Shown one piece after another: positions 8,085 to 62,825 of a stretch of DNA of 64,000 bases (the first letter of the stretch is position 1; each line of letters begins with the position of its first letter). Below the pieces are notes generated by a model that saw only the letters and a list, made by a program, of their open reading frames with translations, did not search any database and had not been told where the DNA came from. The position numbers and the translations under genes are program-made. The stretch comes from Hyperoplus lanceolatus (Eukaryota > Chordata > Actinopteri > Uranoscopiformes > Ammodytidae). The DNA is taken from positions 14,546,001 to 14,610,000 of the forward strand of contig CM049416.1 of the NCBI GenBank assembly GCA_026929865.2, written 5' to 3'.

Positions 8085-8178
8085 CAGTTTTGCAAGTCTT
8101 GCTCTGCCTTGGCCCGGTCCTGCTCCATGTCTTTATACAGTTCGTCTGTGATCTTCTTCCTCAGGGCATCTTCATCAA
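8085..8178 (-). CDS. chchd3: chchd3 exon 3
   Basis: Minus-strand exon after an acceptor ending ttttcag (8179-8185) and before a donor gttagg (8079-8084). The single base left over from exon 2 completes GTT (Val355), and the frame reads VDEDALRKKITDELYKDMEQ and then DRAKAEQDLQN, ending two bases into codon 386. It aligns with the segment of human MIC19 starting VSDEELKRRVAEELALEQ, the start of the charged helical part. The exon choice rests on splice sites, phase and position in the protein. The donor is less canonical than the others, so the 3' edge is the weakest point. Confidence 0.75.
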
Positions 8179-12200: not shown

Positions 12201-14234
12201 CGGTAAACATAAGGGCCAATGCATGACATGAACAAAACTGGAAAATCGCGATAATATCATTCAAATACAGCCGTGTCAAACACACATTCACAATCAACAA
12301 CACTTCAGATGTACTATGCATATAAAGAGAAGAAGGAGAGAAAGAAAGTTCTCTTAGCGGTTTTTTCTCCCCTATTTCCTCCTGGAAGACCTCTGCCACT
12401 TCTCAAGCTTTCAATCAGTCTTTCTTTTTCAGCTATGGTCAAGGATGGACATTGAAAAGACATAGCAATGACAACCCAAATGTTCTCTGACAGAAAAATG
12501 TGGAACATACATTTATATTGGACCACTTACGGAGGAAAAAGTTCTGTACATTTTGTAATCCTTCACGGACACCGTGTGCCACGAAAAGTAGCCCCGTAAC
12601 TACACTCAAAAAATTCACATCTTGTTCCAAAATAAAGTGAGATATTGTTGTATTAATCATTATTAGCAAATTAGCATGCACTTTTATTAACTACTAATGT
12701 TCCCAGAAAGAAAAAGACAAGAGGGTCACACACACAAAACTCAGTGTCATATCGCCAAAAGCTCTAGGTCCAAATCAAAATGTAACACACATACAGACGC
12801 ACGCCCACCACCTCCTTCCCCTAAATGAGGCCTGGTGGTTTGTTGTGTGAAACTGCGGAGGTGTCGTTTTAATCACTGGAGTCAGTGCGGCGTGGCATAA
12901 GTTGGCCCTTTTTTAATTAGCATACTGATTGAGCACAGTCAAGGATGGGGAAGCCTGCCCACACCCTGGATGCCACCCTCTGAAGGGAAAAGCAGCCCCC
13001 GCGTCCTGCTCTGAACTGTGTAATGAACAGGTAACATTCAAATGTCCTCTGCCGGATATGTCAAGAGAAAAAAGGGGGTCGCCACACCGAAGTCACAATA
13101 AGGCTAAAACAAACTTTTCTATGTGTGAAAAAAAGTTTTTTTCTTTAGGAAAAAGTGGAAACTAAGTGAAAACACACAATATATTGACATATGAAGGTAA
13201 TTAAATATATAATATAATAGGTTATAAACCTTATAAACTTGTTATGACAAAACATTATAGTTGCATACAACTACATCCAAAAGACACAGAATAACTTTAC
13301 CATTTATTTCGAGTTGTGTATCTGGTCATCTGGTGTAGGAACGTTTCAGGGGGGAAAAAAAAAAATCTTCTTTTAGGTCTGTTTTTGGTCTCCAACCAAT
13401 CCAGATGGCCATCTGGATGCTATGTGGCTAAATGCTCTCTATGTTCAAAAGCTAGTTTTGACAAACATTGTGTGCCTGCTGTTTGTGACTGGACAAGTAG
13501 TGTGTGATGGGTTTTTAGACCTGGAAACCAACAAATATGAACAAATACATAAGTCCTCCTCATATAATCCATTGTCTAAATTAAAATATTTATTATAGCT
13601 GCTCTGATGAAGGAGGAGTAATAGAACATGGATACAATTATCCGAAATTAAGAAGACTGCTGAGTTTAGCCTCACTATTTGTGAAAGAGAAGGGTTGTGG
13701 TGACAGCTAGAGTTTCCACAGTAAAGGGCCACTAATTACAGCATCGATGTATTAACACCATTACAAAAAGAATTAATCATTTCATTAAAAGTTAGGGGAT
13801 GGCACTAAATCATAAAACGACGGAGGGTATTGTGAGGCCCATTTTTTAAAATGAAGACTAATTATGAATGGCAAGAGAACTTGGGAGACGAAAAGCTTAA
13901 GAAGGCTCCAAGTAAACACCCACAAAATAAACATCATTAAAATTCAATGCAGCTGACTTTAAATTAATCCACGGACAGGTCGCTCCCTCATTACCTTTTG
14001 ATTAAGCATTCTACTGAAGGAGCGCGCCAGGATGAAATGAGCCATTACAGAGGAGGACGACACATTTCTTCAGGTTTCATAAATGAAGGTCGCCCATGCC
14101 TCTTGTTGGAGGAAAGAGAAACGCAGTTTGTCCGGATGCGTCAAAGGTGAAAAATCACAACTTGACGAAAACCAGCAAAAATGAAGTGGACATTTCCAGA
14201 TTTAAAAATGTTTCTGGTCTTGAATTCAACTGTA

Positions 14235-14806: not shown

Positions 14807-15791
14807 CAGCTGGTGCAGCAGGAGGTGGTGGTGAACTTGACTCTGGCACTACCACTGGCTCTACCACTGGCTCGGGGACAGGAGCGGGGATTACCGGTGG
14901 CGGCTCCACTTTGGGCTGAGGAGGAGGAGGAGGTGCAACTGGTTCACACGGAGCAGTAAACTCAGGCAGGGAGGGAGGCGTGGCAAGCGGCTCAGCAGCA
15001 GGCTGCGGGGACAACATGGCGTCCCCTGAGGGTATTGGTGGCAGGACGGTGACGGGTTCGAAAACGGGAGGGGAAGAGAGCTGAGGTTCTGGTTCGGTGA
15101 AACGGGGAGCAGTGATTGGCTCAATCTGGACAGAGGGAGGAGGAGGAGGAGGAATAGGAGCTGGCATGGGTTCAGCTAAACACGGGGGAGCAATGGGTTC
15201 AATTAAGGGAGGAGGAGATTGGTCGATTACAAGGGAAGGAGGAGGAGCAAGCGGAGCAATGGCCTCCACCACCGCCGGAGTCTGGCAGGGAGCAGGGATC
15301 AGGGGAGCAACTTCAGCGGGGGGAGGAGGAGAAGGAGAAGGAGGGAGGGATGTAGGCAAAATGACCGGCTCAAAAGCAGCGGAAGCAAGAGCAGTAGGAG
15401 GAGGAGGAGATGCCACCACAGGCTCAAAAGCAGGAGTAGCGACAGTGTTACCAGTGGCTGCGGGCATTGTCGGCAGCACCATGTCAATGATGTTGGGTGC
15501 TGCTACTACTACCTGTTCTGTGGGAGGTGGAGGTTGAGGAATAGGAGGTGGAGGTACAGCCACAGTCTCCAGGGCTGGTGGAGGTGCGACAGGTTCTACA
15601 ACAGGAGGAGGGGTGGGAGAAGGAGGCAGGCTGGTGATGGGGTCGGATGGGGGAGGAGGAGATACTGGCGTCAGGAGTGGAGGGGGGGCAGTGAAGAGAG
15701 GCGCCATGGCAGGATGAACAGTGGGAGGGGCATGTCGAAGTTTGGGGAGATCAATAGGTTCCTTCATGCGGTTGATGACATTCTCGGAAAG
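14807..15791 (-). CDS. chchd3: chchd3 exon 2 with long proline-rich insert
   Basis: A 985-nt minus-strand exon between an acceptor tttgaag (ag at 15792-15793) and a gtgagt donor (14801-14806). It enters in phase 0 directly after exon 1, encodes residues 27-354 and leaves one base over. Residues 27-37 (LSENVINRMKE) are the conserved MIC19 segment (human LSENVIDRMKE). The next roughly 300 residues are proline-rich: runs of 3-6 prolines separated by Val, Ala, Ile and Ser, with a recurring EPV/EPI/EPL unit and almost no charged residues except Glu. Human MIC19 has only a short Ser/Gly linker here. No stop interrupts the frame, and it joins a recognisable exon 3, so it is probably coding. The plus strand is correspondingly GGA-rich. 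Alternative splicing that skips or shortens it is possible but cannot be seen. Confidence 0.85.
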
Positions 15792-17111: not shown

Positions 17112-17189
17112 CCGTATGCCCTTCACCACTGTTATGTTCTCGTTCTCGTCTGACTCGAACGACACGCGGCGGGTGTTGTTTGCTCCCAT
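17112..17189 (-). CDS. chchd3: chchd3 exon 1, N terminus of MIC19
   Basis: Reads MGANNTRRVSFESDEN and continues ENITVVKGIR (26 codons), ending at a strong gtaagt donor. The DENENITVVKGIR segment is essentially the human MIC19 sequence. Gly2 with Thr6 fits the N-myristoylation signal known for MIC19, which is important for its targeting to mitochondria. The ATG is the only one giving the myristoylation context. The length matches the human first coding exon almost exactly. Confidence 0.92.
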
Positions 17190-22226: not shown

Positions 22227-22306
22227 ATGGCAGCTGATACAGGGCGATACAGGAGTGCAGTTAGCAAAAACAAAGACCCCTCTGGTCTTCTTATCTCTGT
22301 CATAAG
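22227..22306 (+). CDS. exoc4: exoc4 exon 1
   Basis: Reads MAADTGRYRSAV and then [15 protein letters not shown], matching the human Sec8 N terminus ([20 protein letters not shown]) apart from a shorter Ala/Gly stretch. It ends two bases into the Arg codon at a gtaagg donor. The start is supported by homology and by the promoter motifs just upstream. This short N-terminal tail precedes the first helix. Confidence 0.95.
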
Positions 22307-23339
22307 GTAAGGGTTAACACATGTTTTACGTTATTAAGTTAACGTTACTGGTGAGACGTTTGGCAGCTCTTAAACTATGGTATCAATAGCTGAGGGGCAC
22401 GGATTGACAGCTAGCTCCTGTGCTAAAGCTACATGATAGCAACATCCTTCCTGTATTGTTTATTATGCTATTTCAATTAAGGGTCACGCATTTGCTGTTT
22501 ATTATTAACGGTTGTAAGTCTCAGTTTATATTAACACCAACTAGCTTTATTGAATTCCTTAAGTATAAGACAAGGTTGGACACAGACTGTGTCTAAAGAA
22601 TCTCATCCATTAATCGTTTCTACTTAAACTATAACGGTTTTCTTATTAAACGTAACACCTGTACGGAAAACTGTTTCCCCAATGTCGGCCTACAGTTATC
22701 ATTCCTTTTATTTATTCCGGTTGGCTCAACGAATTGCAACCAACCTTTGATTTCGGAAATGTCTTTTGGAACAGACCAGAATTTTTGCTTTGTCTCGGTT
22801 CGTCTAAAGTTTATTTAGTTGGAGAACAGCCACTTATGTCTGGATTTTGGTTATTATCATCACCATCTTTATATACTAATAGTCCTACTATAAAATAGAT
22901 GAATAATATCAGAGGTACAAACTGCAACCACACTCTGTGACCCCTATTATAAGTGTGTCATGTGTCATAATTGTTTCAAAGCCTAACATCCGAAAATGGA
23001 CAGGAACATCTGTAAAAGAAAAAAAAATAGTGTAAAAGAAAAAATGTTAATTACATAATGTAAATAAAGTATTACTTTAAAAAAATGTTTTTACTACCAT
23101 GATAAAATGAGCATCTTCTGCTAAATATATGAAAATATGCTATATCTGACAACACCACTATAAAACTGTTCATTTTGCTATGCAGCCTATAATGTGGGGG
23201 TATGTTGGCATGCAAAGTCTTGCACTGTAACTATCATACCCTTGACACTATATGATCTTCTCCACTCCAACATTGCTTGATGCTTAGTTCAGTCACTGAG
23301 TTGAAACGTAACTTTTCTTTCCACCTTCTCCGTTTGCAG
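22307..23339. other. exoc4 intron 1
   Basis: gtaagg donor and a tttgcag acceptor. No repeat or other feature recognised. Confidence 0.85.
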
Positions 23340-23529
23340 GACTCTGTCCAGCAGTGACGATGTGGAGGACAGGGAGACGGAGAAGGGTCGTCTGGAAGAG
23401 GCCTTTGAGACATGTGACACTGATCTAGACGGGCTGATTGTTCAGCATTATGCCGAGCTCACCACCGCTATCCGGACCTACCAGAGCATCACTGAGCGCA
23501 TCACCAGCTCCCGCAACAAGATCAAACAG
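23340..23529 (+). CDS. exoc4: exoc4 exon 2
   Basis: Completes Arg27 and encodes residues to 90, including [20 protein letters not shown] and [20 protein letters not shown], ending KIKQ at a codon boundary. It is nearly identical to human Sec8 and lies in the N-terminal helical Sec8 domain, which forms the long coiled-coil bundle (CorEx region) packing the exocyst subunits together. Acceptor tttgcag, donor gtaggat. Confidence 0.97.
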
Positions 23530-25315
23530 GTAGGATGGAGAGACTTTAGTACAGAAAATGGTCAATCTGCAGAGTGGTCAAAACTATGACTAGAATTCAT
23601 GCTCACATTGTTGCCTGACATCATTTAAGGCAGTGACCTAAAGCTGTGTTATTTAAAAAAACAACATCTGGTTTTCATTCATTTGAAGTTGTCTCTTGAC
23701 ACATTAAAGGTGCTACAAGGAACTTTTAAACTGTTCTGAAACAGTCTCATATTCCCCCTGATGATCAGAAATGACATGTGACAACAAACTAGACCATCAG
23801 TGCAAAGAATTATATTTTTATATAGTTCTTCTTAATACCTTTGCCATGGGTACGCACGCTCACCCTGGAACTACAGCTGGCGTAGTAAAAACACTACCGC
23901 TTTTGTCCAAATGGGGTGCAAGAATGAACAAAAACTGAAAGTTCATCGGAGCACCTTTTAAAATAGTTTCCTATCTCAATTTTTAGACTATAAGACTGCA
24001 AGATTGACTTATCTAAACTAAATCCTTTTCACCCAAGAAGGAAACTGCCTGATTAATGATTGTCCCTTGGCGTTAAATTACGCCCAGGGGGCTGAGGATT
24101 CTTTCTTTAAGGTCAGCCCCTCAGTCCCTTCCATGGAAGATTGTGCAAATTCAACATCTAGTGTCTCTGGGCTTTTTCTTGGTACAGTTTTATCCTTTTT
24201 AAATAATGACTCAAGAAGTGGCATATATAATTAACATTACCTCTGAACTATTTTATCACCAATATCCTGAAAGGGAAGCATCTAAGTAATAATAAATAAC
24301 AATACAATTAATTTTTACAGCACTTTCCAAAACAAAGTTATTGTTTGACGTGGTTGAACACGTGGTTGAACATGAATTCTAACATTTCTCATCAGCAAGA
24401 ACGGAAAACAGCTGTGTAGGTGTGCAGGGTCTGCAAATCTCATTTCTAATTGTCTGATCATTACACAGTTAGCAGAAAAATAACAAAACCACCCACACCA
24501 GTAAACCAAGTGTTTTTTAAAAGTTGTGAGATAAATTAACTATTTTTTTAATTCTTATTTTCAATTTTTTCATCTACGTTTCAGAGATCCAGTGATACTG
24601 TAATACACTTATTACATTGTGTATTCAGGTTTATATTATTGATAATATATAGTATATGTTTATTACTTTCACCCATTGTTTTATGTCACTGGACATGCAA
24701 TTTCCTTGATGGAAGTAAAAGGAATTTTTAGCAGTCCTTAATCTTCCCTGAAGGCTTTTAGGCTTTTTTCAGTTGTGTGTCTACGGCACCCCTCTGTTTC
24801 CACATCCCCTGCTGGCACACACTGAGCTCATACGATTCCACATTTCACATTCTTGACATTGCTGACAACTCAGCATGACACTCACATGAAATGCAATATT
24901 ATTTAGACAGTAGTTTAGGAGAAGCCATGCTTCAATAGTATTTCTGAAAAAAATTAGAAAGATAATGTTGGGTAAGTTACTTGGCTAACTGTAAATCAGT
25001 GTTTTATGTTAACGGATTGTAGTTGAGTGAAAATCTCCTTTTCAAAGCCTATTGCTTTATGGGGATGTTATACTTTAGGAAGATTCAAGTAGGCTCACTC
25101 AGTAATACTGTATCAGCCTGTACAGGTTTCTGCCCCACCCACACATATACTTATATCCTTTAGCAGTATGTGTTTTTATATTGTTTGTATGTGAAATAAA
25201 CTAATCTAAACTAAAACGTTTGTAGTCTTTACAGGGTACTACTTTAGCTCAAATGTGCCTGGAGGTTAAGTATGGTGTCCTGTTAGTTTGGATTTCAACT
25301 CACTCTCTCCTACAG
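23530..25315. other. exoc4 intron 2
   Basis: A 1.8-kb intron with one MITE (23706-23959). The rest shows nothing recognisable. Confidence 0.8.
23706..23959 (-). mobile_element. AAAGGTGCT MITE, copy 1
   Basis: A roughly 255-bp element with inverted ends AAAGGTGCTAC and GGAGCACCTTTT. It is the reverse complement of the copy at 35276-35531 over its whole length; shared internal blocks include the complement of GACAAAAGCTGTAGTGTTTT and CGCCAGC. It encodes nothing. Confidence 0.75.
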
Positions 25316-25510
25316 GTGAAGGAGAACCTCCTGTCTTGTAAGATGCTGCTCCACTGCAAACGAGACGAGCTGAGGAAGCTGTGGATAGAGGGCATCGAGC
25401 ACAAGCACGTCCTCCAGCTCCTGGATGAGATAGAGAGCATCAAGCAGGTGCCTCAGCGGCTGGAGGCCTATATGGCCAGCAAGCACTACCTGCATGCAAC
25501 AGATATGCTG
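25316..25510 (+). CDS. exoc4: exoc4 exon 3
   Basis: A 65-codon exon, phase 0 at both ends, encoding residues 91-155: [20 protein letters not shown], then [20 protein letters not shown] and the tail [12 protein letters not shown]. It is almost identical to human Sec8 and continues the conserved N-terminal helical domain. Acceptor ctacag, donor gtgagt. Confidence 0.97.
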
Positions 25511-26582
25511 GTGAGTAGACCAATACGTTATGTTATATCTATTAGTCAATTTACACAAGGCACATTGAAATTCATCTTTTCGCATATCCCCTCTCAAGTT
25601 ACCACACTTCGGAGGGGGTCAGATGTGGTTGTGTGCGGGTATCTTTGTGATTCTAAGTATGTGTATACTGTATTTTAAAAAATACATTACATTACATTAC
25701 ATTATTGATTTGGTCTTCAAATTAGCTTTATGTTTGGTTGGATGGTAAGTGAAGTAAAAAAAAAAAGAAGTGAGAAATGGGAAAAGGCACAGATTGCTGT
25801 CTTGTTTTTGAATGTGCGGGAATTGGAAATCCAATCCAGTGCAGATTCATAAATACCCGTGTCTCTTCCTGGTGCCTATCAGCCCCTTTTTAAAGAATCC
25901 TTCTTAAGCCTTGAACAGTCCAGTGGATGCAACCGCCTTTTACTTCAAGCGAACAACATCTTAAGTGCAGTCCAGCCAAGGCGCTGCTGGTGTGTACGTA
26001 CGGGTGTACTCTTGTTCTTTTGATGTGTGTTTTGCGGTATGCTCGGGAGGGGAGCCAGGGATGGCATGGAGGACTAAACAACCTGGCTGTGTGATCTCTC
26101 TGCCTCAGTTCTCTTTTCCCTTCCCTTCCCCTGTCACTCCCACACATCTTTCTTGAGACTTTGTTAATAATTAGTTTGCTAGTATGGGGTTATCTGAGGA
26201 GAATAAGGCAGAGGGGAAAAAAAGAGGGATGATGATGGTACGCCCAAAGGACCATGAAAAGTCCTCTGTGTGGGCGAGTAAAAGAAGTGGGACTTAATTC
26301 AACCTGAGCACAGTCAGTACGGCGTGTTTTGTAAGGTTGTGAAAAATGTCAAAGACGGTTATACCTTTCCCCTCTGTCCTGCAATCTTCAAATGGGCCTC
26401 ACTAAATCAGAATGGCGCACTTTCACTGGTATGCACACTTTAAAGAGCATTTTATTTGCCTCCAAAGACCCATCTTCTGTTAGATGTACGCCTGCTACCT
26501 TTTTCTATGGCTACACATTCATGCAACTCATGAATAAATAAGGTCCACTATCAATAAACCACACTTTGATTATACGTAGGGC

Positions 26583-28361: not shown

Positions 28362-28841
28362 GCCTGGCGGGCATGCCAAGCTATTCTATTAACCCATTGA
28401 TGACTATGGCAATCTAGGATGCATGTCCTTAATGCCTGAGGGTTTTCTGAAAAAATTGTACGAATTGTCAAGTCTACCAAAACCTTAATATCTAAGCCTG
28501 TGTAGCATTAAATACAAACATTAAATAAAATACATTTAAAAGTTAAGGTTCACAGGTTTTATTTAAACATGCTCCCTTAGCAGCCCCGCATATATTCGTC
28601 CACGTCCATTGACGCTGCTGATTTTTTTCTACTCTTTGTTGATATACGGCAGCTTTCCCTGTCATTTCATCCCTCATACTGAGTAAGACTGATTATTTAA
28701 GTAAAGAGGATTTTTCCTTTTATTTAGTTTGTTTTTTTAGAAGGCTGGTGCTCCAGAATCTATTGCTAATCCCCGCTCGCTAATGCTAACTCCGCTAGCT
28801 AGCGTTAGCTCTATAGTGTTCTGTCTTTTTTTCACCACATC

Positions 28842-30005
28842 ATGTCACCGGCACTCATCCAGACAGATCCAGAGCTTCTCCTCCTGAGATCCGAGCTCAA
28901 GTCAGTGGAGAGTCTCATTCACGATCTCCTCCAGGGGCAGTCCTTCCTGGTCTCGAAATTAGCTGTGCTTGAAAAAGCTCCTCTTTCAAGTTCTCAGGCA
29001 CCGGTTAGCGGCGTTTCTACTGCTTCTGCTACTCAACCTCCCGACGCTACATGGACGTCTGTTGTCAGGAAGGGCAGACGATCTTCTACACGATCTTCTC
29101 ATCCTCATCCTCCTCCTCTACTCTCCTCTCCATCTCCTCCTCTGCTCTCGCTAGATCCTATATTGACGCGCAATCCATTTGCTCCGCTGGAAGTGCTATA
29201 TGGGGCTGCTGAACCTGCGGCTCGTGTTGCCGGCTCTCCACCTGCTTCGCCGGTCCAAACCTGCTCCAAGGTAACACGGGGACGTCAAGGTTTCACTTCC
29301 CAGTTTAAATCTCGAGATCGCCACCGTTTACCAGCTCCATCCGGAAATGTGTTTTCCTGTGTGCGTCCCTCCGTGCCTCCTCAAATTAATGCCCCCGGTG
29401 ATGACATCCGCTGTACAGGTGAGGCTCTCTCTCGCAGCAATGCCCCGCCCTCACCTCCTCCCCTCTCATCGAAGCTGTCTCTCTACTATGGGAGCTGCTT
29501 GAATCACCAACCTGAGATCCTCATCATCGGTGACTGTATTGTCAGATTTCTTTGTCTCCCTGGTGCTTTCACCTACTGCCTCTCTGGAGGAAAATCATCT
29601 GACATTATGGAGCCAACACCTGCCCTCGTTGCCCTCCACCCTACTGCCCACATAGTCATCCTGCATGTTGGAACTAATGATGTAATGGATAAACGGTCAT
29701 ACCAACTGTTGGACAATCTACAGAGCCTGGCCATCACCCTGGAGAGCCTGGGGAAATTCTGTATATTTTCCGGCCCCATTCCCACGTCATCCAAAAGCCC
29801 TGAGCGCTACAGCCGTCTTCTGGATTTCCATGAACGGCTGGAGTCCTGGTGCTCGATCAACTCTCTGGGCTATATTAACAACTTTGACTCATTCTCTAGA
29901 CACACTCTACTTAAATCTGACGGCCTCCATCCCAATGCCAAAGGTATTAAAGAACTTACTAATCACTACATTCATCACATCGCATCTTGGCATAATTCGG
30001 ACTGA
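28842..30005 (+). CDS. LINE ORF1 protein with SGNH esterase domain
   Basis: A 387-residue intact frame. Residues about 10-45 (LLLLRSELKSVESLIHDLLQ) look like a short coiled coil, residues 60-220 are Pro/Ser-rich, and 225-385 form an SGNH/GDSL-type hydrolase domain as in CR1/L2 ORF1 proteins. The block III motif HVGTNDV (Asn279) and block V SDGLHPN (Asp360, His363) are present. The block I motif reads IIGDCIV, so the catalytic Ser of GDS is Cys232. ORF1 proteins of this type bind nucleic acid and probably form ribonucleoprotein; the role of the esterase is unclear. The frame is open, but activity is doubtful because of the Cys and the broken ORF2. Confidence 0.8.
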   Translation: MSPALIQTDPELLLLRSELKSVESLIHDLLQGQSFLVSKLAVLEKAPLSSSQAPVSGVSTASATQPPDATWTSVVRKGRRSSTRSSHPHPPPLLSSPSPPLLSLDPILTRNPFAPLEVLYGAAEPAARVAGSPPASPVQTCSKVTRGRQGFTSQFKSRDRHRLPAPSGNVFSCVRPSVPPQINAPGDDIRCTGEALSRSNAPPSPPPLSSKLSLYYGSCLNHQPEILIIGDCIVRFLCLPGAFTYCLSGGKSSDIMEPTPALVALHPTAHIVILHVGTNDVMDKRSYQLLDNLQSLAITLESLGKFCIFSGPIPTSSKSPERYSRLLDFHERLESWCSINSLGYINNFDSFSRHTLLKSDGLHPNAKGIKELTNHYIHHIASWHNSD

Positions 30006-30239
30006 TATTTACCACAGCACGACCCTACCAAAGCATCCCCCATTAAAAAAGATCTCCCCAGGGGTCCTGCTGAAGTATCCCCCAATTTAACTCATATCAA
30101 CACCTCAAATTGTCCTTCCATCTGTGCTGCAAACCTTCCTCCAGCTCTGGACATCACAGCTGACTGTCCTCCCTCACCTCCAACGGCCCATCCACCTGCT
30201 GCTTCTAACGCTGGCTCCCTCTACAGGCACAAACCTGTT

Positions 30240-33140
30240 TTGTATGACCCTGAAAAACAAGCAATGCTTCCTAGCTGTAAGCTAAATTCACCACAAATTC
30301 TTAAATCAAGAAAGGGCTTGGGTTTTCTACATTTAAATATTAGAAGTTTATTGCAGCATGATAAATTAGACCACGTAAAGATTTTAGTGTCCCAGGCAGA
30401 CCCAGATGTTTTGATTCTGACTGAATCCTGGTTAAAGAAGAGTACAGATGACTCTATTGTGGCAATAAATGATTATAACTTATTCAGAATAGACAGAAAC
30501 ACTAGGGGTGGGGGAGTAGCTGTATATGTTAAATCCTGTTATTCTGTAACACTTTTACATGCCGTCTCTGTTCCAAATTGCTTTGAATCGCGCTAGAATT
30601 ATCTTTATCGTCAAATGATTGTTTTGTTGTAATTGGTGTGTACAGGCCCCCTTCAGCTGTAACTAGCTCCTTAAACGATCTAGCACATATGCTCTCCAGT
30701 TATGTAAATAGAGAGGTAATTGTGATGGGTGATTTTAACGTTGACTGGCTTTCTGGTGCCTCTGAATCTTTCAAAGAAATCTGTAGCAACATTAATCTTA
30801 CACAATTAATAACTGAGCCCACAAGACCTAATCTAAAAAACCCAGCAAAATCAACTTTAATAGATTTAATCTTATCAAATAAAATAAATAAAATAGCCTT
30901 AGCTGGTGTCTTTGAGCTTGGGATTAGTGATCACTGCCCAGTGGCCTGTATCAGAAGTATTCATTTAAAAAGATCTCAACCTAAAATCATAATTAAGCGT
31001 AATTTTAAAGGTTTTAATGAGCATGCCTTTTTAAGTGATCTCCATCATAGTGACATTCAACTGACTACGCAAATTTCGGATGTTGAGTTAGCCTTAGACC
31101 ATTTCATCAATACTTTCACCTCAATTATAAACAAGCATGCGCCCCTAAAAAAGCATAGAGTAAAAAATAGATCAAACCCCTGGTTTACAAGTGAACTATC
31201 TGATTTATTTTCCGAGAGAAATAAAGCATGGTCTGTAGCTAGACGCTCTGGAGATAATACCAATTGGACAATTTTTAGACACCTTAGGAATAAATGCACA
31301 GCCATGGTCAGGAAAGCCAAATCTGAAAACTACCTTGAATTAATCTCAAACTGCTACTCTAACCCTGCACTATTTTGGAAAGCTGTGAACTATAATAAAA
31401 ACAATTCTAGCACAGTTCCCACTCAGATCAAATTAAATGGTCACACTCTCAATGATCAAAAAGAGATTGGCTTAGCTTTTAATAAACATTTTGTAGCTGC
31501 TGGTCAACTCTTTCAGAATGGAGGTTATAGGCCTTCTACCACCAGTAGTAACGTACCGCCTGTCTCTCAAACTCCTCTTTTCAGCCTTGATCTTCTTCCC
31601 ACAAGTGTTGTTGTAGATGCACTCCTCGCCATCAACCCCAAGAAGTACATGGGAGAGGACAATTTGGACCCCTTTTCAATCAAGCTCTCTACACATATAA
31701 TATCAAAACAAATTACCCATATTTTTAATCTTTCCATCTCCTCTGGAATAGTTCCTAAAATTTGGAAAAAAGCTCATGTAATTCCTTTACATAAAGGTGG
31801 TGACAAGAATAATCTTAATAACTACAGGCCAATTTCCAAACTCCCATGCCTCGCAAAAATTCAAGAATCACTTATTAATAATCAGTTAAAAACATTTCTA
31901 ACTAGTGCTTCCATTTTGAGCCCATTCCAATCTGGTTTTAGGGCAGGCCACAGTACTGTCTCTGACTTTGGTTGTAGACAACATTGTTACAGCATTAGAC
32001 AAGAAAAAGCACTGTGCAGCACTTTTTATTGATCTTTCAAAGGCCTTTGATACTGTTGACCACCATTTGCTTTTACAGAGGCTGCATGACATTGGCTTTG
32101 ATCAGTCTGCATGTAGCTGGTTTAGGGACTATCTCTCTGATAGACAGCAGTCAGTTAAACTGGGAAGATACCAGTCTGAGTTTTTAACTGTTACAAATGG
32201 TGTCCCACAGGGCTCAATTTTAGGTCCAGTTCTTTTCACAATTTATATAAATAACATTGTTTCATTGCTAAAAAACTGTCACGCCCATCTATACGCTGAC
32301 GACACAGTACTGTATTGCATTTCCGATTCGGTGCACTAATCTATTCAGAACCTACAAAGCTCTTTTAACACCCTGCAGGACTGTCTAGTGGACCTCAGGC
32401 TTGTTCTTAATACAGACAAAACCAAATATATGTGTTTCTCCAGAGCAAAAACTACACATTTTAATGATTTTAATATGTTTACAAAGAATGGATTTTTAAT
32501 TGAAAGAGTCACAGAGTATAAATATCTCGGCATCTGGTTAGATGATAAACTCACTTTTCATTTTCATATAAATAATCTTGTTTGTCGACTACGACAAAAA
32601 ATTGGCTATTTTTATAGGAATAAAACCACCTTCCCTTTATTTAGTAGGAAAAGGATTATTGAGGCAGTTTTCATGTCTGTCCTTGATTACGGTGATGTGG
32701 TCTACCGGCATGCATCTCATTCATGTCTTAAACTCCTAGACTCTGTTTTTCACTCTGCTTTAAGATTCATCACAGGAGATGCTTATGATACACACCATTG
32801 TCTCTTATATGAAAAGGTTGGGTGGTCCTCCCTTAAAGAGAGACGTGACGCACATTGGCACATTTTTATTTACAAAGCCTTGACCGGGAAGCTTCCTCGT
32901 TATTTAACTGAAATGCTGCACATTTCAGATGGGCTTTATCAAACCCGCTCCACTGACATGCTTATGCTTTATGTCCCACAAGCCCGGTCTGAGCTGGGAA
33001 AGACAGCTTTTAGCTTCAGTGCCCCCGACTCCTGCAACAACTTACAGCAACAAATTAAACTAAATACATTCGTATCCTTTGGCCAATTTAAACAGATTAT
33101 CTTGGATCTGCCAAACTCTACTTGTAACTGTTTTAATTAG
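30240..33140 (+). pseudogene. LINE ORF2 (endonuclease + reverse transcriptase), broken
   Basis: The endonuclease part shows HLNIRSL, ILTESWL, VYRPPSA, VMGDFNVDW and SDHCPV, the usual catalytic blocks of the apurinic-type nuclease. The reverse transcriptase shows NNYRPIS, FQSGFRAGHST, LFIDLSKAFDTVDH (motif A), NGVPQGSILGPVLF (motif B) and LYADDTVLY (motif C), followed by the thumb and C-terminal region. The frame is broken three times: a shift near 30590, a shift near 31960 and an in-frame stop at about 32337. It cannot make a full-length protein, although all catalytic motifs are still readable. Confidence 0.88.
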
Positions 33141-35051
33141 GCTATATTGTACTTTATTCCTTTTAATTGCTGCCACTCTTTACCACTTTGTAAATGTTTC
33201 AATTGTTTTTTTGTTTTTTTCTCTTCTCTTCACTTGTTGTGTATTTGATGTATTTGCATTGAATATTGAATTGAATTGCATTGAATATGTATTGTTGTTT
33301 TGAATTTGTTTTGACTCGACATCATTGAAAATGAGGGTCACCCCTCAATTGGTCTCTCGAGGATAAATAAAAGTTAAATGAAAAAAAAATGAAATTAGCG
33401 CTTACACACCAACAAATTTTTCTAAAAATCGTCAAAATTAGATGGGGGAGAAAAAAAAGAATAAATAATATAAAATACTTAGTGCGATTTTCGTTAGTAG
33501 CCTATAGTGGACCTTGATTCTGCGCACCAAACGCCACTAACTGTTCTGTAATACACTATCGCTGACACAGCCGGCTTATTTTTTTTAATTTTTAATTTTT
33601 AATTTTTTTGATTGATGTGATTTTCGCCAAACCACACAACTTTTGGGTGATCACGTGGTCTTAAAAAATCAACAAAACCCACCTCATGTGTATTTGAACC
33701 AATGACAGTGCATTCTATGCTGCGCATGCCATGAAAATTAGATAAAGTAACAATGCTGCACGATGCAGCATCAGGCAGGAGAGGCAATGTGGCATCGCGC
33801 AGCAGCCGTCTTCAATGGGTTAAGCCAGAGGGGGCTGATCATGCAGCGCATTAGCTCATCTTGTCACTAGTGGCTCTCATTTGCATCAACACACACTTGA
33901 CCCATGGCCCATGCTCCCCACCCTCCCCTGCTACCTATTCCTTTTTCTGTTCCGCCCTGGGCATGCAAATATTTTTTCAAAGCGCTATCATCCGGCCATT
34001 AGTGCCCTTAAATTGCACACAGAAATACACATACATATACATAAGTACACATGTAGAGACGGGGACTTTCGATTTAATGGCATGAGGATTTATTAATTGC
34101 AAAGATGCCACAACCGCTGCTGCTCCTGCTCATAAAAAACTGAAGGGAGAGGGAGAGTGGGTGAATCTGGTGAAATAAATAATGTGACTCAGGAGGGCAT
34201 GAGGAGACTTTAGATTAGTTTTTTAGAGGGTAATATATTGTTCATATATTGAACATGACACTATATTTGTACAACTGCAAATATTATATAAAAAAGTACT
34301 TATATATTCAGAAATTAATTAAAAAAAAAGTTTTTCATTGAAATGTTAAATATGGGGACAAATAAGGCTTTGACTGAACAAGTTTTGTAATTTTTGAAGA
34401 AAGGTTTCTTGGCCACTGGGTTCTTGATTTACACCGAATTTATAAGGTGTCATTTCAAAGGAAGTGATCTAAAGCTGGCTGGCCAAGGCAGCTCTCATTA
34501 CAATCACACCTCCATTAGACACCATGTAAGATGTTTCACCAGCAGAGAAACACTAACCACAGCCTAGTGGAGTGCTACATTTAATTTCCTGTCCTTGTAT
34601 AGCCCTTATGCAGTTACTGGTGGGCAATATTTCAATATGACCATATCTTCTATTTGTACAGGCTGAATTTTGCCAAGGAAAATGTGCCAACCTCCCACCT
34701 CCATACTACAATGTTGGTTGTTTGATGATTATTTATTTTTTCACTGGCTTTGAAAGATTTATGAAAATTGGATACAAAATGTGATTTCAGCGACTATCTT
34801 GTGTCAGGCGGCTGTGGCTCAGGAGTTGGAAGGGGTTGTCTGCTGATCACAGGGTTATTGTTTCATCACTTTTTACTGTTAATGTAGCCAGCATTAACTG
34901 TTATTTCTTCTGTTGTCTTACTGGATCGATAGTGGGAACAGTCAGCAGGTAGTCTGGCTGCATATCGGCTGTTAATATGAGACACCTAAGACACTTAAAA
35001 AGGCACAGCTAAGTTTAACCAGCAGTCTGGCTACTATGTTGTCCATTGCAG

Positions 35052-35245
35052 GTGACAGCTGTGGAGTCCTTGGAAGGTCCCCTGCTGCAGGTGGAAGGGC
35101 TAGGAGATCTACGCCTGGAGCTACACAGCAAGAAACTCAACATCCACCTGGTCCTAATTGACGAGCTGCACCGACACCTCTACATCAAGTCCACCAGTCG
35201 CCTCGGACACAAGAACAAGGACAAAAATGCTGCCCGCCTCCAAGG
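35052..35245 (+). CDS. exoc4: exoc4 exon 4
   Basis: Encodes residues 156-219 plus two bases: [20 protein letters not shown], then [20 protein letters not shown] and [10 protein letters not shown]. It is nearly identical to human Sec8 up to the charged, less conserved stretch ([15 protein letters not shown]) at the exon end. Acceptor ttgcag; donor gtaacg, a somewhat weak GT site. A MITE starts only 31 bp downstream of this donor. Confidence 0.96.
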
Positions 35246-50500: not shown

Positions 50501-51170
50501 GCATTGATGGGATTCCCCGGGATGCAGTCACTGAGGGAGCTCTTCGTTTTGGAAACTGTTACCCCTCTTTCCCACCTAAGGTAGCGTGAGCTGCTTCATA
50601 AAGTGTTCACAGGATTCAAGAGATCTCAATTGTAAAGGGATGGCATTCCTAGGATCGGGAGCAACAGCTTGAAAAGCACAGTCACCTCTGGTTTTAAACT
50701 GGACTGGGTTTGCAGGACAGCCCGTAGTAGCTGGTCAGATGTAGCTTTGCAACAAATAAAACTTTTTCGGACTAATGTGGCACTCATTATCACGGCAGAC
50801 TTGTATATTTAACAGTTGTAAGCTCTGTACCAGGGCTTGTGGTTGATTTGGAAATGGATTGGTATAGTAGAGGCTTGTGCCCTTGCCAAATAAATTGTTT
50901 CCTTCTTGTGAAACCAACCCCCTTTTTTCTCTTCACTTGGAGATGTAAAATCCATAACAACTGGTTATTTAACTTGGTCTCTCTTTGTCTTTCTTTCTTT
51001 TCATCCTATCTTTCCACACCCATTTTCTTGCATCCTGTTAATTGTCCACTTCTCCACCTTAAGCCTTTACTCTTTCTATTATCCCCATCTCTTTTTTCCC
51101 CCTCTCTTTTTTATCTCTCCTTGCTCCTCTCACTCCCGCTGGTCTACCTTCTGTCCATCCCACCCCATCT

Positions 51171-51238
51171 CTTCTTCTTCTTCTTCTTCTTCTTCTTCTT
51201 CTTCTTCTTCTTCTTCTTCTTCTTCTTCTTCTTCTTCT

Positions 51239-51270
<32 letters not shown>

Positions 51271-51404
51271 CTCTTCTTCCTCTTCTTCCTCTTCTTCCTC
51301 TTCTTCCTCTTCTTCCTCTTCTTCCTCTTCTTCTTCCTCTTCCTCTTCCTCTTCTTCTTCCTCTTCTTCTTCCTCTTCCTCTTCCTCTTCCTCTTCCTCC
51401 TCCA
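51171..51404. repeat. long pyrimidine tract, (CTT)30 then TCTTCC-type repeats
   Basis: About 90 bp of pure CTT triplets (51171-51260) pass into about 145 bp of TTCTTCCTC and TCTTCC variants, then a short ATTC run (51405-51420). The whole is a pyrimidine strand against purines, prone to triplex structure. It produces false poly-Phe and poly-Glu frames. Confidence 0.97.
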
Positions 51405-52503
51405 TTCATTCATTCATTCAGGGCTAATGCAATTTAAGTAGGGTCGGAGTCCCTTCATATGCCCCGATGCTGGCATTTCATTAAGTCGACTTGGGCATTA
51501 GCTCACAAGCAAGTGGAGGTTTCGCTCCATCAGCTCATCATTAGTAATTAATACACTGATAGGATTAGCTGCAGCATGAGGCTATATTGGCGAGTGAGTG
51601 GAAGCCCTGGTGTTGTCAGTTGTAGAGGGCGTGTGTGGCCTACAGCCCTGCCTGTGATGTGGGGAAAGTGAGTCGGGATAATTATTACATTTGTGGAGCA
51701 AGACTTGTGAATTTACTTGCAACTTTTTAGACACAAGACTAATTTAATATTACATCAGAATCATTTTATGTTACAAAGTGTTCATTTTTGTTGTTGTTGT
51801 ATTAATCATTTCCTTTATAGTTATTCATCGAAACCTCAGAATGTACTAATATTTTACTTTTTTAAAACAAAACTAAATTGTTTTTCTAAATGGATGTACC
51901 TGCAATCAAATGAAAAGCCTACGCTAGCTATGTGAAGGCTTTCCCATGCGTGACGGGGGGTTCGCTCTGCTCAGCGTTAATTACATCATTATGCCCAGGA
52001 TTGGATCTCCATCTGCTTGGCCATTACTCCTGTCCCATTCCGGGCTGACCGCACTGCGCTTCAAGAATTAGACACACACAGGCTAAGTGGCCCTGCTAAA
52101 TTATGAAGCTATTAGATATGGGAGGCTATTTTAGAACATATGTATTCACACAGGGAGAGAAAAAATAGAATTGTGAGAAATGAGAGATGAAGCGCTAAGA
52201 GATTTTGAGAAATGAGAGCCAATGAAAGCAAGAGAGGGAAAGCAGCGCAGATAGAATGATAGAGTGGAGGAAGTTAACTTTTTCGGTCTGGCTGGAGTCT
52301 TTAATGCGCTCGTGCTCAGCTATTGTTAGAAGTTGATAAGATTTTCATGAAGCACGATAAGACGTTGATGGATTTCACCATGGATCATGCAGACAGATGA
52401 GGGAAATGGGGGAACAAGATTTATTTTTCAAATTTATTTTCACGGTGGTCATCAAAGCACAGAGTCAAGTCAGCAGCTTATTGTCGACCAGAGTTTGGAT
52501 TTA

Positions 52504-54124
52504 CACTCAACAAAAATATAAACGCAACACTTTTGTTTTTGCTCCCATTTTTCATGAGATGGACTTAAAGATCTAAAATTCATTCCAGATACACAATATT
52601 ACCATTTCTCTCAAACATTGTTCACAAATCTGTCTAAATGTGTGATAGTGAGCACTTCTGCTTTGCTGAGATAATCCATCCCACCTCACAGGTGTGCCAC
52701 ATCAAGATGCTGATCTGACATCGTGATTAGTGCACAGGTGTGCCTTAGACTGTCCACAATAAAAGGCCACTCTGAAATGTGCATTTTTTTGCTTTATTGG
52801 GGGTCTGGGGACTCAGAACTAGTCAGTATCTGGTGTGACCACCATTTGCCTCATGCAGTGCAACACATCTTCTTCGCATAGAGTTTATCAGATTGTCAAT
52901 TGTGGCCTGTGGAATGTTGGTCCACTCCTCTTCAATGGCTGAGCGAAGTTGCTGGATATTAGTGGGAAGTGGTGCACGCTGTCGTATACGCTGGTCAAGC
53001 ACATCCCAAACATGCTCAATGGGTGACATGTCCGGTAAGTATACTGACCATGCAAGAACTGGGACATTTTCAGCTTCCAAGAATTGTGTACAGATCCTTG
53101 CAACATGGGGCCGTGCATTATCTTGCTGAAACGTGAGGTGATGTTCATGGATGTATGGCACAACAATGGGCCTCAGGATCTCATCACGGTATCTCTGTGC
53201 ATTCAAAATGCCATCAATAAAATGCACCTGTGTTCTTCGTCCATAACAGATGCCTGCCCATACCATAACCCCACCACCACCATGGGCCACTCGATCCACA
53301 ACATTGACATCAGCAAAGCGCTCACCCACATGACGCCACACACGCTGTCTGCCATCTGCCCTGAACAATGTAAACTGAGATTCATCCGTGAAGAGAACAC
53401 CTCTCCAACGTGCAGACGCCATCAAATGTGAGCATTTGCCCACTCAAGTCTGTTACGGCGATGAGCTGGAGTCAGGTCAAGACCCCGATGAGGACGACGA
53501 GCATGCAGTTGAGCTTCCCTGAGACGGTTTCTGACAGTTTGTGCAGAAATTGTTTGGTTATGCAAACCAATTGTTTCAGCAGCTGTCTCAGTGGCTGGTC
53601 TCAGACGATCTTGGAGGTGAACCTGCTGGATGTGGAGGTCCTGGGCTGGTGTGGTTACACGTGGTCTGCGGTTGTGAGGCCGGTTGGATGTACTGCCATA
53701 TTCTCTGAAACGCCTTTGGAGACGGTGGAGAAATGAACATTCAATGCACGAGCAACAGATCTGGTTGACATTCCTGCTGTCAGCATGCCAATTGCACGCT
53801 CCCTCAATGCTTGTGGCATCTGTGGCATTTTGCTGTGAGACAAAACTGCACATTTCAGGGTGGCCTTTTGTTGTGGACAGTCTAAGCCACACCTGTGCAC
53901 TAATCATGATGTCAGATCAGCATCTTGATGTGGCACACATGTGAGGTGGGATGGATTATCTCAGCAAAGCAGAAGTGCTCACTATCACACATTTAGATAG
54001 ATTTGTGAACAATGTTTGAGAAATGGTAATATTGTGTATCTGGAATGAATTTTAGATCTTTAAGTCCATCTCATGAAAAATGGGAGCAAAAACAAAAGTG
54101 TTGCGTTTATATTTTTGTTGAGTG
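52504..54124 (-). mobile_element. Tc1-like transposon with 280-bp inverted repeats
   Basis: A 1621-bp element flanked by TA on both sides (52502-52503, 54125-54126). The terminal inverted repeats are about 280 bp each (52504-52783 and 53847-54124) and begin CACTCAACAAAAATATAAAC. They enclose a minus-strand transposase gene. The arms remain highly similar, so the insertion is not very old, but the gene is frameshifted. Confidence 0.93.
52823..53828 (-). pseudogene. Tc1-like DD34E transposase, frameshifted
   Basis: The start MPQMPQALRERAIG lies 19 bp inside the right repeat. A helix-turn-helix DNA-binding part follows (GMSTRSVARALNVHFSTVS), then RPRVTTPAQD and a second helical part. The catalytic domain has FTDESQF (first Asp), FQQDNARPH (second Asp) and SPIEHVWD (Glu), with exactly 34 residues between the second Asp and the Glu. 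The frame is broken near 53725 (between HFSTVS and RLQRRFREYG) and near 53430 (before RWRGVLF). It cannot make an active enzyme as it stands, though the ends could be moved by a transposase supplied elsewhere. Confidence 0.9.
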
Positions 54125-61787: not shown

Positions 61788-62168
61788 TTAAGTCTCCTCT
61801 TTAGCAGGTAAAATGCATGCTCTATAGCGTTTAAGTCTGGAGATTGACTTAGCCAGTCTAAAACCTTCCACTTCTTGCCCCTGATTAACTCCTTCATTGT
61901 GTTTTGGGTCATTATCTTGCTGCATGATGGAGGATCTTCCAATCAGTTTGGATGCATCTTTCCTTAAATTGTCAGACAAAATGTTTCTGTAAACTTCTGA
62001 GTTCATTTTGCTGTTGCCATCATGGGTTACATCATCAATGAAGAATAATGAGCCTGTCCCAGATGAGCCTGTATGTTTGGGCTCATGAGTAAATCCTTTC
62101 TTTCTCCAAACTTTAGCCTGTCCATCACTTTGGTAAAGGTTCATCTTGACAACAACACAGTAACACAT
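61788..62168 (-). pseudogene. Tc1 transposase fragment, left arm plus spacer
   Basis: Encodes VWRKKGFTHEPKHTG, SLFFIDDVTHDGNSKMN and IMQQDNDPKHN, then loses frame before the Glu motif. It corresponds to the middle and C-terminal part of a DD34E transposase; the DNA-binding domain is missing. Confidence 0.8.
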
Positions 62169-62590
62169 GATGGCAACAGCAAAATTAACTTAGAAGTCTA
62201 CAGAAACATTCGCTCTGCCAATTTAAAGAAAGATGCAACCAAACTGATTGGAAGATCCCTCATCATGCAGCAAGATAATGATCCAAAAAAACTGCAAAAA
62301 CAACAAAGGAGTTCATCAGGGGCAAGAAGTGGAAGGTTTTAGACTGGGCAAGTCAATCTCCAGACTTAAACGCTATAGAGCATGCATTTTACCTGCTAAA
62401 AAGGAGACCGAAAGGAGAAACCCCCCAAAACAAACAGCAACTGAATGAGGCTGCGGTGAAAGCCTGGAAAAGCATCACAAAAGAAGAATGCAAACGTTTT
62501 GTGATGTCAATGGGTCACAGGCTTGATGCAGTTATTGCAAGCAAAGTATTTGCGACAAAATATTACGGTTTATTCACTTTAATTTATTTA
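62161..62590 (+). pseudogene. Tc1 transposase fragment, right arm
   Basis: Inverted duplicate of the left-arm fragment: THDGNSKINLEVYRNIRS, LIGRSLIMQQDNDPK, then a frame break, DLNAIEHAFYLLK and the C-terminal KSITKEECKRFVMSMGHRLD. It differs from the left arm by scattered substitutions and small indels. Confidence 0.78.
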
Positions 62591-62825
62591 AAGTCTATCT
62601 GTTCCAATACTTCTGCTTGCCTAAAAATGTGGTGTTCCTTTTCAAATAATGATATCTTCTCAGTTGTGTATCAGATCCAGATGTGAATACCTGGAAATGA
62701 AAGCTGAAATGTTGAGCTATTGTCTCATATTCATCTTTTGGTGTCAAACCCAAATGTTTCCAGTCTACAGCAAAACTAAAGGAATTGGCGTCACTGTTCC
62801 GATACTTATGGAGGGGACTGTATAT

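Follow-up and report, generated by a model that had tools for sequence, protein, structure and literature searches.

The window is a stretch of 64,000 nucleotides of the Hyperoplus lanceolatus genome (C22:14546001-14610000), the genome searched with it amounting to 807 Mb in 527 contigs. It holds, on the minus strand, the beginning of a gene for MIC19 (CHCHD3), a protein of the MICOS complex, and, on the plus strand, the first exons of EXOC4. The remaining MIC19 exons lie outside the window on the same contig. The features are listed below, in window positions unless the contig is named.

17112 to 17189, minus strand: MIC19 exon 1, 78 nt, encoding MGANNTRRVSFESDENENITVVKGIR, with the start codon and the donor CGG/GTAAGT
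14807 to 15791, minus strand: MIC19 giant exon 2, 985 nt, phase 0 in and phase 1 out
15759 to 15791, minus strand: conserved exon 2 start LSENVINRMKE, from the translation and the alignment with human MIC19
14807 to 15758, minus strand: proline-rich insert, 317 residues, 35.6% Pro, net charge -21, with EP(V/I/L) units
8085 to 8178, minus strand: MIC19 exon 3, 94 nt, VDEDALRKKITDELYKDMEQDRAKAEQDLQN, DEDALRKKITDELYKDMEQDRAKAEQDLQN
C22:14545413-14545233, minus strand: MIC19 exon 4, outside the window
C22:14522321-14522238, minus strand: MIC19 exon 5, outside the window
C22:14513808-14513738, minus strand: MIC19 exon 6, outside the window
C22:14500225-14500090, minus strand: MIC19 exon 7, the twin-CX9C (CHCH) exon, with CADLQGQILAC and CSNIAARYLQC
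22227-22307, 23329-23532, 25295-25516 and 35028-35225, plus strand: first exons of EXOC4 (tblastn extents, human EXOC4 as query)

Exons 1 to 6 of MIC19 form a single frame when translated jointly. For exon 7, whose final codons and stop are not included here, a manual phase match at the acceptor shows that the frame continues. Several mobile or repetitive elements accompany the two genes. Between the EXOC4 exons, successive plus-strand frames of 398, 196, 481, 139 and 266 amino acids (28809-33140) are labelled as a non-LTR retrotransposon from the endonuclease-like and reverse-transcriptase-like residues in their translations. Tc1/mariner-like transposase fragments, also judged from translations, are found at 52823-53916 (minus strand) and 61788-62686 (both strands), and a long GGA/GAA-type simple repeat with open frames in several phases at 51059-51441.

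The assignment of the gene as MIC19, already made in the original prediction, is firm. It exhibits an MG start with myristoylation-type residues, the exon junction KGIR/LSENVINRMKE, the MIC19_MIC25 helices, the twin CX9C motif and EXOC4 as a neighbour. Exon 1 displays 70% identity to human MIC19 over 30 aligned positions of which the final 5 are read-through beyond the donor. We take its MGANNT to be a myristoylation-type motif, and the N terminus to be the SAM50 side of the protein. The Pfam model PF05300 (MIC19_MIC25) matches exons 3-7 with an E value of 1e-42 (146.9 bits, cut-off 33). It finds no match up to E 1 in exons 1-3 with the insert included, and reaches 23.9 bits, under the cut-off, once most of the insert is removed. 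The Pfam CHCH model scores 14.5 bits, under its own cut-off of 27.2, though the twin CX9C motif is present; a PDB sequence search with exons 3-7 returned no match at E up to 0.001. In an IQ-TREE tree built from three short conserved blocks of 6 sequences only, a split at 98% puts the C22 and C6 genes with human MIC19, and the C2 and C10 genes with human MIC25. EXOC4 is divergent from MIC19 at a distance of ~5 kb and serves as a synteny marker only. Plexin-family matches are located on the same contig at 14.23-14.26 Mb, and in the human gene order EXOC4 and PLXNA4 are the neighbours of CHCHD3.

Exon 2 runs from 15791 to 14807 between the acceptor TTTTTGAAG/ and the donor CTG/GTGAGT. With a weight matrix, the acceptor scores 7.6, a moderate value with an A at -3, and the donor 10.3; the exon 1 donor reaches 10.3, the exon 3 acceptor 10.2 and the exon 3 donor 5.5. 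The exon is uninterrupted and in phase with exons 1 and 3, as originally claimed, and the ~300 residues then announced amount to 317 after LSENVINRMKE. They are composed of 35.6% Pro, 12.3% Ala, 10.1% Val and 6.3% Glu, with 2 Lys, 2 Arg and a net charge of -21. The recurrence of EP(V/I/L) also stood: this unit occurs 11 times in the 328 codons of the exon, one copy overlapping the conserved MKEP start, against a mean of 1.7 and a maximum of 9 in 2000 shuffles. Such an arm, with 36% Pro, an acidic character and no Pfam family for either insert at E up to 0.1 (the second insert is described below), is probably disordered and extended. The stiffness that the original prediction attributed to it stays conjectural. 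That prediction also considered SH3, WW or profilin binding. The scan of exon 2 found no PPxY, [FWYL]PxPP, [RK]xxPxxP or PxxPx[RK], which leaves the SH3 and WW part unsupported, and we reject binding to SH3, WW or EVH1 domains as the principal function of the arm; the two Pro runs of five or more leave profilin possible. The predicted trypsin pieces of the exon product are of 8, 2, 7, 2, 211, 64 and 34 residues, LSENVINR and EPIDLPK being the only ones 7 to 30 residues long. Trypsin-based proteomics would largely miss the arm because so few predicted pieces have a usable length, and this fragmentation pattern is a possible reason for its having gone unnoticed.

Searched with PF05300 at E up to 10, the genome yields 11 matches belonging to four genes: C22 (4 matches), C2 (3), C10 (2) and C6 (2), and flanking sequence was read around each gene. 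Exon 3 of the window gene, with an E value of 3.95, and a match at 5.8 are the weakest of the 11. The C6 gene is a second MIC19. Its exons 1-3 were joined, while its exons 4-7 are separate matches. Its exon 1 is 78 nt long and encodes MGGNSSSHLSRDDGEGGGVTFVKGIR. Its exon 2, of 2032 nt (C6:25921086-25919055), likewise enters in phase 0 and leaves in phase 1; its acceptor scores 10.9 and its donor 10.8. It encodes LSDKVINRMRE followed by a 666-residue arm, in which Pro makes up 27.2%, Val 14.6% and Glu 12.9%, with a net charge of -81 and 18 EP(V/I/L) units against 6.7 in shuffles. Its tryptic pieces include three of 9 to 18 residues within the 7-30 range and one of 468. To note, upstream of C6:25918512 a long TG repeat replaces the pyrimidine tract of the exon 4 acceptor of this gene, and the splicing of that exon may be unusual given this repeat.

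The other two genes are of the MIC25 (CHCHD6) type. They belong to the same family as MIC19, but their exon 2 is short, 97 nt on C2 and 94 nt on C10. The giant exon is thus found in two of the four family genes, both of the MIC19 type, and is not general to the family in this genome. Its presence on C6 makes a one-off freak of the C22 gene unlikely. Separately, an 84-nt MIC25-type exon match on C2 (C2:30857366-30857449) sits inside a stop-to-stop frame of 1792 amino acids, which is perhaps a stop-free intronic simple repeat.

Could such open frames be an artefact of C-rich simple sequence, another exon 2 being used or the gene decaying? C-rich DNA has few stops, simple runs do occur inside the exon, and simulations with the order-0, order-1 and order-2 composition of exon 2 (5000 runs each) lack an in-frame stop in fractions of 0.0014 (that is, 0.14%), 0.0004 and 0.0004. 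The coding frame of exon 2, however, holds no stop against 13 and 12 in the two other sense frames, and that of the C6 exon none against 51 and 31; none of 2000 simulations of the latter was open at any of the three orders. On these counts and simulations we reject a chance open frame. Among the window and 23 stretches of 10 kb, 294 kb in total, only two stop-to-stop frames of at least 150 residues have at least 20% Pro, namely exon 2 and its C6 counterpart. As the splice phases match, the later exons are in phase and two genes agree, an untranslated exon is highly improbable, and it is very likely, judging from the sequence, that exon 2 is translated.

Which form of the exon enters the mature transcript is a separate matter. 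Skipping the whole exon would break the frame, 985 and 2032 not being multiples of three, and would also remove the LSENVINRMKE-type start. A search of introns 1 and 2 of both MIC19 genes for a replacement exon (21 to 299 nt, phase 0 to 1, each splice site scoring above 7) found none; the cut would miss real weak-site exons, since the genuine exon 3 donor scores 5.5. Within exon 2 of the window, eight internal acceptor-like sites score above 4 and four of them, at 15595, 15517, 15125 and 14915 (7.7 to 9.3), exceed the real acceptor. Splicing exon 1 to either of two of these, 15125 (8.9) or 14915 (9.3), would preserve the reading frame but lose LSENVINRMKE, so that shorter in-frame forms are possible. 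The best in-phase internal donor, at 15451, is weak (5.06) and would yield a 340-nt exon; the C6 exon has no internal donor above 4 besides the true one.

A giant proline-rich exon in an otherwise ordinary small protein is known from skNAC, the muscle form of NACA, which, by the title of a 1996 paper, is reportedly produced by splicing in such an exon. By this precedent, the giant part of MIC19 would be confined to some tissues, such as muscle, a shorter form arising elsewhere through internal or missed sites. The in-frame acceptor-like sites that outscore the real one and the phase-1 donor at 15451 are in keeping with such an isoform. In its introns, the window gene carries the motif TGCATG, which we take to be of Rbfox type, on the minus strand at 12680, 10925, 7425, 6807, 5098 and 3978. 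In the zebrafish heart, mic19a and mic19b undergo Rbfox-dependent alternative splicing, but the event concerns exon 5, which could not be equated with exon 2 here (PMC9534849, as far as its available part goes). Pyrimidine-rich Pro codons, moreover, mimic acceptors by nature and the sites they create lose the conserved start, the C6 exon offers no internal donor, and the replacement-exon search was negative. Removal of the whole giant exon leaves the frame intact in the skNAC type, but not in MIC19. skNAC is, besides, a different protein in a different compartment. A tissue-restricted arm therefore appears unlikely, and inclusion of the full exon 2 is the simplest reading.

In the MIC19/CHCHD3 papers listed, neither titles nor abstract openings mention an insert of this kind. 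In the parts of the papers that were available, the word "proline" is absent from PMC9534849, and the words "proline", "isoform", "splice" and "linker" from PMC13293838; likewise, the available part of a study of schizothoracins names mic19 among positive-selection candidates and mentions no insert (PMC5397779). Human MIC19 has 227 residues in all, and human and zebrafish MIC19 are ~73% identical, according to the available part of PMC13293838. From this identity, the zebrafish form in question may well be a short one, devoid of the arm. The linker from LSENVINRMKE to exon 3, of 317 residues on C22 and 666 on C6, compares with ~18 in the human protein. We regard the long-armed protein as a MIC19 variant, the family not being defined by how long this linker is.

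What the arm may do is suggested by its position. MIC19 carries a lipid on its N terminus, which contacts SAM50 and can be cleaved by OMA1 under stress, while MIC60 is bound through the CHCH domain (PMC13293838, available part). The two reported binding regions, for SAM50 and for MIC60, thus flank the insert, in agreement with the original prediction, which placed it after the N terminus and before the helical/CHCH part. Because it occupies this place and should be extended, a tether is proposed. The 317-residue arm would link the lipid-anchored N terminus, at SAM50 in the outer membrane, to the helical/CHCH part, at MIC60 in the inner membrane; a single MIC19 could then reach from MIC60 to SAM50 across a longer and more variable gap of the intermembrane space, and the length and negative charge of the arm might affect the membrane spacing at crista junctions. 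With a random-coil formula, the end-to-end distance is estimated at ~15 nm for the C22 insert and ~23 nm for the C6 insert, the polyproline II contours being 98 nm and 206 nm, and we infer a relation of the coil lengths to the intermembrane gap. Taken as a whole, the explanation of exon 2 as a translated exon of a working MIC19 gene, its arm serving as a disordered acidic intermembrane-space tether, is the one to which we lean, with moderate confidence.

The main rival is a neutral one: the arm would be translated but without function, a loose hinge downstream of LSENVINRMKE having grown by slippage and repeat duplication under little selection. A merely tolerated long linker would look identical to a tether. 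The way in which the inserts are built bears on this point. The C6 insert harbors a 186-bp unit in 3.5 copies, still recognisable as repeats, and to this extent repeat expansion, as invoked in the original prediction, was borne out; the window insert, for which it had been invoked, has no long tandem array, with repeat units of 3 to 12 bases only (TRF). Its exon contains pure GGA runs of up to 6 units on the plus strand. Its Pro codons are mixed (57 CCT, 26 CCC, 20 CCA and 10 CCG), so it is not one pure DNA repeat. A TPPPPP stretch occupies the hinge of the C2 MIC25-type gene, and in human MIC25, too, this hinge is Pro-rich over a short distance. Six C6 repeat units, aligned at the protein level and compared in 15 pairs, give a pN/pS of 0.56 for the true frame, 0.60 for the frame shifted by one and 1.64 for that shifted by two; constraint on the residues is not supported by this ratio, since the shift-one frame gives a nearly equal value. 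The inserts also differ in length and in residue order. The C6 repeats, the GGA runs, the C2 Pro stretch, the pN/pS values and these differences speak for a tolerated expansion. Despite the divergence of the two proteins, however, both exons have kept an open frame, a like composition and an excess of EP(V/I/L). We consider the neutral reading clearly less probable than the tether, though a serious contender.

The kinship of the two inserts was approached by alignment and genome searches. Three conserved blocks of the C22 and C6 proteins, 97 positions in total, are 52.6% identical, and the inserts, alike in motif and composition, have little residue order in common. Whole-genome searches with the inserts, which score few candidates and skip simple repeats, matched neither to the other. 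The window insert with its LSENVINRMKE start found only itself at E up to 0.001, a search whose limited sensitivity is apparent from its missing C6; a further insert search, at E up to 10, found the query itself and matches on C3 and C12 (E 0.6 and 1.8). In a direct alignment of the two inserts, none of 300 composition shuffles attained the local score, nor the global one; order-1 simulations of the window insert attained them in 6 and 4 cases of 300, respectively. A single old insert whose repeats turned over fast and two expansions in parallel are both compatible with these results.

As to the gene pair, caldesmon-family matches occur on C22 (10.42-10.44 Mb), C6 (26.10 and 35.30 Mb) and C1 (31.58 Mb), and the MIC19 genes, at 14.5 Mb on C22 and 25.9 Mb on C6, are thus on chromosomes that also bear such matches. 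Zebrafish likewise possesses mic19a and mic19b (PMC9534849, available part). A single EXOC4 exon, used as query at E up to 1, matched its own locus and nothing else in the genome, C6 included, and the plexin match nearest to C6 MIC19 among the matches listed is 1.2 Mb away. The fit of the pair to the teleost genome duplication is therefore thin. If the pair does date to that event, the giant exon may be as old as the pair itself.

The closest functional parallel to the proposed tether is provided by TonB. Its disordered linker crosses the periplasm from an inner-membrane anchor to an outer-membrane partner and includes a proline-rich region of ~70 residues that opens with Glu-Pro repeats, contains Glu-Pro and Lys-Pro units and adopts polyproline II (PMC10771500, available part). 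The MIC19 arm has its EP(V/I/L) excess, and would span the membranes if judged solely by the partners of MIC19. TonB would work like the putative tether but is not a relative, and the MIC19 arm has neither the Lys-Pro half nor a motor. A bolder proposal, which we hold to be doubtful, is that the Pro-rich arm predates the teleost genome duplication and was retained in both daughters as a ruler, comparable to TonB, for the distance separating the outer and inner mitochondrial membranes, its lengths having been tuned separately. Were this true, the fish would possess two crista-junction bridges of unlike reach (317 versus 666 residues), MIC25 remaining short.

How the spacing of mitochondrial membranes is determined at crista junctions is, to our knowledge, an open question, and MIC19 reportedly connects MIC60 with SAM50. 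Predicted linkers of ~18 and ~37 times the human length (~18 residues) occur here as two lengths in one animal. A natural MIC19 of two lengths would be a ready experiment on tether length, and some fish may join both mitochondrial membranes by a long tether.
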